NCBI RefSeq assembly: GCF_023093535.1
Contig: NZ_CP095757.1
Coordinates: 620,001-684,000, forward strand
DNA: 64,000 bases
Direction: 5' to 3'
Source of the DNA: Halovivax limisalsi
Lineage (GTDB): Archaea > Halobacteriota > Halobacteria > Halobacteriales > Natrialbaceae
Shown: positions 50,810 through 52,895 of the stretch, in pieces
Layout: every line of letters begins with the position of its first letter
Position numbering within the stretch: position 1 is the stretch's first letter
Notes under the pieces: generated by a model
The model's input: the letters and a program-made list of their open reading frames with translations, nothing else
Told to the model about the DNA's origin: nothing
Database searches by the model: none
Made by a program: the position numbers and the translations under genes

Positions 50810-51379
50810 ATGGACTTCGACGTCGACGCCTGGCGGGCCGAACTCGAGGCCAAACGCGAGGAGAAGGACGACTTCTTCGCCGAGCACCCGCAGTCGCCGA
50901 TCCCGCCGGACGAGCGCGATTCGTTCGACGGACTCTCCTACTTCGACCCCGACCCCGCCTATCGCGTGACGGCAGACGTGACCGTCCACGACGATCCCGA
51001 GGTCGTTTACGTGGACACCTCGACGGGCGGCGAGATGCGCTACCTCGCCGTGGCGACGCTGTCGATGACGCTCCCATCGGCCGATCCGGACGCCGCGGAC
51101 GCCGACGTCGACCTCGACGGCTATCGCCAGGAGAGCGCCGAGGACGAGACGCTGTTCGTCCCGATCCGCGACAAGACGACGGGCCAGCAGACCTACGAGG
51201 GCGGGCGCTACCTCGAACTGGCGGCGGATCGATCGCTGTCGACCGGCGACGAGATCGTCGTCGACTTCAACCTGGCGTACGCGCCGTTCTGCGCGTACTC
51301 GGAGGCGTTCGAGTGCCCGCTCCCGCCCGAATCCAACTGGATCGAGGTCGCGATCCCGGCCGGCGAACGGGGGCCGTAG
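50810..51379 (+). CDS. DUF1684 family protein
   Basis: A 189-residue soluble protein. The N-terminal DVDAWRAELEAKREEKDDFF, the middle LFVPIRDKTTGQQTYEGGRY and the C-terminal DFNLAYAPFCAYSEAFECPLPP are typical of DUF1684 proteins, whose C-terminal Cys may bind an iron or another metal. Function unknown, often near lipid or antioxidant genes. Start chosen at the Met at the domain edge. Confidence 0.9.
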   Translation: MDFDVDAWRAELEAKREEKDDFFAEHPQSPIPPDERDSFDGLSYFDPDPAYRVTADVTVHDDPEVVYVDTSTGGEMRYLAVATLSMTLPSADPDAADADVDLDGYRQESAEDETLFVPIRDKTTGQQTYEGGRYLELAADRSLSTGDEIVVDFNLAYAPFCAYSEAFECPLPPESNWIEVAIPAGERGP

Positions 51380-52098
51380 TTCCCGGCGACGGCGACGGAC
51401 GATTGCCACTTGCGATACCTCCGTTTCAACTGGACGTCAGCCGTGCGTCAGACGCCGTCAGGAACCGGCTGTCGGCGGTTCGCGGGGCGGCTGCGGACGA
51501 GGGGTTCGATTCCACGGGAAATCGTGGGGTTCGATACCGCGCCGTGCGATTGCGGCCCGTCGCCCTCATGCGATTTCGAAACGACCGGTTCGAGTGGAGC
51601 GTCAGACGTTCGGCTGACGGACGCACTCCCCCTCATCGTCGGGAATCTGGTCGCGTTGGGGAATGTGACGAAATATTCGAGGTGAAATAAGGGGGTTCGA
51701 TCGACGGAACGAGACGGCGACGCGGTGGCGGCGGTCTGTCGGTCGGTGTCGCCGCCCGTGTCACGGCGACCGGCAGCGGGGAGCGGCCGACGGAACCCCG
51801 GGACGGCACCGAAACGCATTTTAGGCCAGCCTAAAAACAATGCACTGCGGGAGTGTCACACCGTGGGCATCGGTCCGGGCACTCCAGCAACCCCAGATCC
51901 CTGTCCTTCCGCCAGTCAGCACCCCGTGGAACGTACTCTTACGTCCCGCCGACGGTTCGTCCCGTTCGGCCGGCCGGTGCGTTCTCGTTCCGACTGTCGA
52001 TCCCGTCACTGGCCGTCAGGTCCCGTCATTCCACCCCGGTCACCGGTGCTGATCCTGATTCTCCCGGCGCAGGGCGGCGAGACGCGGAATCAGCACAC
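51380..52098. other. long gene-poor stretch with scattered small repeats
   Basis: No convincing gene in about 720 bases; several Arg/Pro/Ser-rich frames cross it but none has a start, composition or motif I trust. It holds a hairpin CCACG...CGTGG (51512-51527), three copies of GGGGTTCGAT (51501, 51526 and 51692), a TATTC-GAGGT-GAAATA sequence (51674-51689), and the palindrome at 51819-51836. It may be a decayed gene region. Confidence 0.5.
51819..51836. promoter_or_regulatory. DtxR/Idr-type metal-box palindrome
   Basis: TTTTAGGCCAGCCTAAAA is a perfect inverted repeat with a two-base centre. It fits the TTAGG...CCTAA core of sites for DtxR-family regulators, such as Idr/SirR in haloarchaea, which respond to iron or manganese. 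No gene is clearly its target: the nearest annotated start is 291 bases downstream, though an ATG follows four bases after the palindrome. Confidence 0.55.
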
Positions 52099-52108
52099 GT
52101 ATAAGAGG
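52099..52108 (+). promoter_or_regulatory. TATA box for the GGGP synthase gene
   Basis: CGTATAAGAG ends 19 bases before ATG 52128, and its TATA core is about 27 bases from the start codon. It supports the ATG at 52128 over GTG 52116. Confidence 0.65.
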
Positions 52109-52127
52109 CGATTCCGTGCACTCGCCC

Positions 52128-52895
52128 ATGCATCTCGACTGGAGCGGGATCGACCACGTCACGAAGGTCGATCCGGAAAAGCCCATGCCGGCGGATCCGG
52201 CGTCGCTACTCGCCGCGACGGATCTGGTGATGGTCGGCGGCTCGGACGGCGTCACCGAGTCGAACACGCTCGAGACGATCGAGGCGGTTCGCGACGCGGC
52301 CCCCGACGTCCCGATCTTCCAGGAACCGTACGACGCCGCCCAGGTGACGAAGGCGACGGTCGACGCGGTCGACGTCCTCTCCGTGCCGGCGGTCTACAAC
52401 GGCGACCTGGATCACTTCGTCGGCAAGCACCTCTCGATGTTCGGCGAACTCGCGAACAAACCGTCCTCGCTCCTGGGGACGAGCCTGCCGGTCGTCGGCA
52501 ACGTGATCGAGTCCAAGGGCGAGGCCGTCGTCGCCGAACTCGCGGAGAAGATCGTCGGCGAGGGCTACGTCATCCAGCACGTCGACTCCGAGGCCGCTCG
52601 CACCGCCGGCGTCTCCACCCCCTTCTCGACCGCTGACGTCGCCGGCGCCGCGCTCGCGACCGAAGCCTTCTACGACTTTCCGATCTTCTACGTCGAGTAC
52701 TCCGGCACCTACGGCGGCCCCGAGGACGTCGCGGCCGCGGCGAACCAGCTCGAAGAGACCGTGCTCCTCTACGGCGGCGGCATCGACTCGCGGGAGAAGG
52801 CCGACGAGATCCTCGAGGCGGGCGCGGACGCCATCGTCGTCGGCGACTGCTTCCACGACGACCGCGAGAAGTTCCGCGAGACGATTCCGGGGTAG
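52128..52895 (+). CDS. geranylgeranylglyceryl phosphate synthase
   Basis: A 255-residue TIM-barrel prenyltransferase of the PcrB/GGGPS family that joins geranylgeranyl diphosphate to glycerol 1-phosphate, the first step of archaeal ether-lipid making. It has HLDWSGIDHVTKVDPEKP at the start, VMVGGSDGVTESN, FYVEYSGTYGG and LLYGGGIDSREKADEILEAG, the phosphate-binding end of the barrel. The spacing to the TATA box at 52099 fits a leaderless transcript. Confidence 0.94.
   Translation: MHLDWSGIDHVTKVDPEKPMPADPASLLAATDLVMVGGSDGVTESNTLETIEAVRDAAPDVPIFQEPYDAAQVTKATVDAVDVLSVPAVYNGDLDHFVGKHLSMFGELANKPSSLLGTSLPVVGNVIESKGEAVVAELAEKIVGEGYVIQHVDSEAARTAGVSTPFSTADVAGAALATEAFYDFPIFYVEYSGTYGGPEDVAAAANQLEETVLLYGGGIDSREKADEILEAGADAIVVGDCFHDDREKFRETIPG

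Follow-up and report, generated by a model that had tools for sequence, protein, structure and literature searches.

A DtxR-type iron box with no adjoining iron gene in Halovivax limisalsi as the probable relic of an fbpAB control region

The locus and an inversion at its right edge

We analysed a 64,000-nucleotide stretch of Halovivax limisalsi DNA (the window; contig NZ_CP095757.1, positions 620,001 to 684,000) in which a predicted iron box lies between two protein-coding genes on the plus strand. The gene to its left belongs to the DUF1684 family (positions 50810-51379; Pfam accession PF07920, E 7.7e-45) and is conserved on the left side of the ancestral locus described below. The gene to its right (positions 52128-52895; Pfam accession PF01884, E 3.8e-38) encodes a geranylgeranylglyceryl phosphate (GGGP) synthase of the PcrB family and is a non-iron gene. 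The start of the GGGP synthase gene at ATG 52128 aligns with those of relatives, and the closest named record is from Halovivax asiaticus (83%). Its promoter region contains a plus-strand TATAAG (positions 52100-52105) that is alike in four congeners of the window's species.

The box, TTTTAGGCCAGCCTAAAA, occupies positions 51819-51836 and is the only such site within the window. It matches the palindromic core TTTAGG-N4-CCTAAA at all 12 specified bases. A first-pass annotation had described the site as a perfect palindromic metal box of the DtxR type with no evident target gene. The 8-bp inverted-repeat arms are indeed perfect (TTTTAGGC-CA-GCCTAAAA); the central CA is non-palindromic, and 'perfect palindrome' is therefore true of the arms only. 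The assignment as a real metal box of the DtxR type holds: at no more than one mismatch, TTTAGGNNNNCCTAAA identifies 25 palindromic sites (14 of them exact) in the window's genome (G000; 3.89 Mb, one contig), while a reversed-pattern control identifies none. The apparent lack of a target gene holds as well. The closest coding-like start found by a crude gene caller is 280 nt away, and 292 nt separate the box from ATG 52128.

The earlier description of the surrounding DNA as resembling decayed coding sequence finds no support. No frame across about 51380-52127 has haloarchaeal codon-position GC, Pfam searches with five open reading frames around the box returned no match, and the traceable stretches correspond to ancestral intergenic DNA. 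When positions 51380-52127 were compared with 125 genomes of the family, the only matches besides the self-match were of the edges to congeners, the rest being short and mostly low-complexity. Positions 51640-52127 had no match in plasmid and phage collections.

In all four congeners (G001-G004), the counterpart of positions 51415-51701 lies between the DUF1684 gene and a methyltransferase gene and contains short conserved blocks. The blastn pieces for this stretch cover 51415-51457, 51424-51620 and 51673-51699. By eye, the stretch ends in GTGAAATAAGGGGGTTCG, of which the congeners have variants. The blocks GGACGTCAGCCG-GCGTCAGACG, GGAGCGTCAGACG and GTGAAATAAGGGGGTT are kept, with small variants, in five species of the genus. 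Positions 51702-51807 then correspond to the place where relatives carry the methyltransferase gene; blastn and tblastx searches for a trace of it there gave just short low-complexity pieces. The best methyltransferase match in the window's genome is 59% identical and lies at G000:C1:3046550.

Synteny points to a rearrangement between the two flanking genes. The left block (46.5 to 51.37 kb), which ends with the DUF1684 gene, has syntenic counterparts in G001-G004, where the methyltransferase gene comes next. Beyond the methyltransferase gene, G001, G003 and G004 have a DUF7090 gene and G002 has iron boxes, fbpA and fbpB. The right block, which begins at 52062 and includes the GGGP synthase gene, is syntenic with separate loci of the same four genomes. 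There it is preceded by a divergent zinc-finger gene in G001, G003 and G004 and by a different gene in G002. In the window's genome, the DUF7090 gene (521.5-522.1 kb, minus strand) and the zinc-finger gene (537.6-538.3 kb, plus strand) are both inverted relative to their congeneric counterparts, a placement explained by one inversion of about 134-150 kb. These comparisons of gene order show that the box-bearing region of the window abuts, at its right edge, the junction of this putative inversion. The junction would fall within positions 51925-52061, as a covariance-model match described below stops at 51924 and right-hand homology starts at 52062.

No box-like site occurs at the reciprocal junction. 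The junction is filled by a gene of about 4,435 codons (L098 5176-18483; G000:C1:524175-537482), next to which lie CcdA-like and TlpA-like genes. By eye, the product of this large gene has RHS-like repeats together with numerous repeated domains that resemble those of surface proteins.

Iron boxes and DtxR-family regulators in the genus

PMC11349517 names three DtxR-type iron regulators in Haloferax (Idr, SirR and TroR) and the regulators Idr1 and Idr2 in Halobacterium. The same source cites a comparative study of archaeal DtxR regulons (Leyn and Rodionov, 2015). We identified three proteins with the DtxR-family domain PF02742 in the window's genome, two of which were confirmed by Pfam. Two of the proteins examined also contain PF01325, and one also contains FeoA. 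The box shares with the haloarchaeal iron-uptake operators of the Idr/SirR family both the palindromic core and a genome that encodes DtxR-family proteins. It differs from them in that no iron gene adjoins it and in that it lies in what appear to be the remains of a control region, beside a rearrangement junction.

The 24 other sites in the window's genome have the same palindromic core. Genes next to these sites include those for solute-binding proteins, an IucA/IucC-like siderophore cluster, ABC components, a ZIP-like transporter and glycosyltransferases (gene names recognised by eye from translations), and many boxes lie 3 to 12 nt 5' of a start codon. Across the five genomes of the genus, 44 of 46 exact sites have a coding-like start within 184 nt according to the crude caller. 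The two exceptions are the box at 51819-51836 and a site in G004 (C8:41570), for which the caller found no start nearer than 409 nt. Whereas the window has no metal-uptake gene promoter at the box, the orthologous place in G002 and in 26 loci elsewhere in the family has one.

The methyltransferase-fbpA control region and its remnant

We identified relatives of the G002 FbpA protein in 109 of the 125 family genomes and compared the best 29 loci from outside the genus among these 109 genomes, with flanks of 1.5 kb. Synteny with relatives, a check suggested at first annotation, reveals a transporter gene at the expected place: the methyltransferase gene adjoins the iron ABC transporter gene fbpA in G002 and in 26 of these 29 best loci. 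A DUF1684 gene is in view, within the 1.5-kb flanks, in G002 and in 22 of the 29. The 26 methyltransferase-fbpA loci beyond the genus span nine other genera.

All 27 methyltransferase-fbpA intergenic regions (the 26 and that of G002) contain three iron boxes, which we call Boxes 1, 2 and 3. Box 2 follows Box 1 by 31-34 bp and ends in CCGAAA, and Box 3 lies 3-7 nt before the fbpA ATG. A TGGGCA hairpin block is present in 23 of the 27 regions, its CCG starting 32-36 nt after Box 1; the regions without it (L139, L142, L144 and L150) were excluded from our alignment A1. The order in relatives is thus DUF1684 gene, methyltransferase gene, Box 1, Box 2, hairpin block, Box 3 and fbpA. Immediately 5' of Box 1, relatives read ACCGA(C/T)A, with the C at -10 and the G at -9 present in 27 of 27 regions.

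Three short modules of this region are recognisable in the window. First, the box itself corresponds to Box 1. Second, a plus-strand ACCGAAA (positions 51808-51814) sits 12 to 6 nt before the box, at the same offset as ACCGA.A in relatives, and has the commonest letter of the 27 relatives at -12 to -8 and at -6. This motif is probably a BRE, the part of the promoter that is recognised by TFB. Third, the 13-mer CCGTGGGCATCGG lies 25 nt 3' of the box with 13 of 13 bases intact. It forms part of a plus-strand A-CCG-TGGGCAT-CGG-T hairpin block (positions 51860-51874) with A-T as its closing pair. The spacer before this block (positions 51837-51859) is shortened by loss of Box 2: the CCG starts 25 nt after Box 1 here, but 32-36 nt after it in the 23 relatives with a hairpin block. 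The expected number of copies of the 13-mer at +20 to +40 of the box is 6.7e-7, and a search of 834 kb of sequence outside the fbpA loci recovered none besides the window's own copies.

Profile searches with models trained without the window recovered the same site. We built a covariance model (R1) from the Box 2-to-Box 3 block of 23 relatives, with no whole box included. R1 ranks plus-strand positions 51859-51924 of the window first (24.5 bits, E 3.6e-6, model positions 1-70 of 70), the next-best match having an E-value of 0.037. When R1 was run over 43 sources, the window (E 2.5e-5) was the sole match below 0.06 outside the training set. A DNA hidden Markov model of the whole region matched 51800-51889 with an E-value of 1.4e-6, a score that comes partly from the box itself (other iron boxes score as much as 27 bits with this model). 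When the box was excluded, the E-value for the window was 0.097, yet the window was still the best match.

Because of the offset of ACCGAAA, the placement and rarity of CCGTGGGCATCGG and the rank of the R1 match, we assign the box as Box 1 of an ancestral control region. The window retains the DUF1684 gene, Box 1 with its 5' ACCGA.A, and the 3' CCGTGGGCATCGG block. Unlike the family region, it is without the methyltransferase gene, Box 2, Box 3 and fbpAB, and its hairpin 2 and GGCC block are broken. With Box 2 lost and hairpin 2 broken, the homology therefore rests on three short modules and one model. Searches with FbpA, FbpB and HxlR proteins found nothing significant in the window or at the reciprocal junction. 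No protein fragments of the methyltransferase, FbpA or FbpB remain in or near the interval, and the argument for gene loss therefore comes from synteny and the control region alone.

The homology to Box 1, the synteny and the missing methyltransferase gene, Boxes 2 and 3 and fbpAB together lead us to interpret the box, with a probability of about 0.88, as Box 1 of an ancestral three-box methyltransferase-fbpAB control region, an operator that survived the loss of its iron-uptake operon. The first-pass annotation had raised a lost metal-uptake gene as one possible origin of the site, and this suggestion is strongly supported by the homology to a box that G002 and many family members keep. An orphan repressor site would thereby be linked to a specific lost operon, fbpAB, and to the methyltransferase gene next to it. 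G001, G003 and G004 keep the methyltransferase gene, yet no box remnant occurs there, and the losses were therefore independent or differently shaped. That the box and hairpin are intact while Box 2 is lost and hairpin 2 is broken is compatible both with recent loss and with a reduced unit that still serves a purpose.

In relatives, the promoter closed by a DtxR-type repressor on Boxes 1 and 2 would consist of ACCGACA followed by a TATA-like element that overlaps Box 1. This promoter would produce a small RNA or a long fbpA leader that starts near Box 2, and Box 3 would close a leaderless fbpA promoter. When iron is plentiful, a repressor of the Idr/SirR type would likewise bind the box in the window. 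The window's box probably still binds repressor; it would either have no protein-coding target or drive just a short remnant transcript.

Alternative roles for the box

One alternative, which we hold to be possible but tentative, is an iron-repressed small RNA or leader under the control of the box. Such a transcript would start near 51845-51860 and include the hairpin CCG-UGGGCAU-CGG, the copy in relatives lying between the methyltransferase gene and fbpA. Box 1, the 13-mer and ACCGA.A are intact while most of the surrounding DNA is unalignable, although this intactness may only reflect recent loss of the operon, and the breaks in hairpin 2 and the GGCC block count against a working RNA. Hairpin 1 of G002 also departs further from the family form than the window's does, although G002 retains fbpA. 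The conserved hairpin block 25 nt 3' of the box lends some support to the earlier suggestion that the box may control a small RNA.

Covariation within the hairpin block gives a mixed picture. The closing pair covaries strongly: of the 20 sequences that contain the exact 13-mer (the window and 19 relatives), 19 keep the pair, as TA in 11, AT in five, CG in two and GT in one, against a shuffle mean of 10.0. A DNA-only palindrome was considered as a possible cause of this covariation and rejected, as the 7-nt centre is nearly invariant and asymmetric. In contrast, a two-helix structure scored over a 23-row alignment has a covariation score of 0.101; shuffles give 0.074, and 20 of 500 of them score as high. 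Its paired cells (73.5% against 71.0% in shuffles) and most other measures are unremarkable, and RNAalifold does not predict hairpin 1.

By eye, the block looks non-coding: relatives show short stops and indels of one base. We likewise rejected a leaderless mini-gene at GTG 51863, on early stops and frame-breaking indels seen by eye in relatives. No Rfam family matched the window or six fbpA loci, and three matches from a lower-scoring Rfam search of the window fell far below gathering thresholds and were taken as chance. Among the titles and abstract openings covered by a partial literature search, none names this hairpin or an iron-controlled haloarchaeal RNA 5' of fbpA.

A promoter matrix derived from 14 gene-facing sites scored -8.6 on the plus strand and -0.5 on the minus strand at the box, against a background median of -7.6 and a 95th percentile of 0.8. 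These model scores spoke against a live leaderless promoter in either direction. Box 1 is of a different layout in relatives, and the matrix is therefore not decisive on whether the box is active.

Iron-repressed small RNAs of the RyhB and HrrF type occur in bacteria. The window's element, if transcribed, would work in a similar way, as a short RNA of an iron regulon under the control of a repressor. The likeness drawn here is in mode of control, with an archaeal DtxR-type operator in place of Fur.

Several genera share a conserved hairpin block, outside any Rfam family, between the paired boxes and fbpA, and this block is a concrete candidate for an iron-controlled archaeal RNA. A broader version of the small-RNA reading is more doubtful still. 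Haloarchaea of the family may carry an undescribed iron-repressed RNA, either a small RNA or a long leader with CCG-UGGGCAU-CGG as its 5' hairpin, between the paired boxes and fbpA. In the window's species it would be an active, iron-responsive, free-standing unit that has outlived both neighbour genes and possibly reads into the GGGP synthase gene. The window offers a natural test case, as it has the operator and hairpin without the operon; if still transcribed, the element would have a function of its own.

It is unlikely that the box is a promoter captured after the inversion, giving the GGGP synthase gene an iron-responsive transcript with a long leader. In promoter-like order, ACCGAAA followed by ATTTTAGG does face this gene from 292 nt before its ATG, with no coding sequence between. 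However, the gene retains its own promoter region, which is conserved in congeners. Leaderless mRNA is common in haloarchaea, and a leader of 280 nt would be unusual. If such a capture had occurred, it would have added an iron response to an early step of archaeal membrane-lipid synthesis.

We give very little credence to the idea, put forward in the first-pass annotation and contradicted by our comparisons, that the box serves a short protein-coding gene beginning at ATG 51840 as its operator. This ATG lies 4 nt after the 16-bp core, a distance also seen at several true targets, but in relatives the same position falls in the spacer between Boxes 1 and 2. The 70-aa open reading frame has no coding composition, no Pfam match and no convincing DNA relative among the 125 family genomes. 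The upstream TATA-type pattern of leaderless targets is also absent (-8.6 against a background median of -7.6).

A chance palindrome, favoured solely by the missing target gene, is ruled out by the genome count (25 sites against 0 in the control) and the R1 match, and against it also stand an expected count far below 1, the flanking modules that match the fbpA control region and the zero matches within three mismatches in shuffles of the window.

Several other boxes in the genus have features of their own. Four pairs of iron boxes in the window's genome are spaced exactly 36 bp start to start (G000:C1 454334/454370, 458293/458329, 462898/462934 and 2252971/2253007), compared with 31-34 bp for the box pair of the fbpA region. 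In four species (at G000:C1:3865604 and at the matching sites in G001, G003 and G004), another box lies at a distance of exactly 32 nt from the start of the gene that follows, which was recognised by eye as glycosyltransferase-like and has no obvious link to uptake. We also identified a TTTTGG-N4-CCTAAA variant of the box at G000:C1:2081511, G001:3350334, G003:1235760 and G004:C6:316414, the first of which is close to a ZIP-like transporter gene (named by eye).
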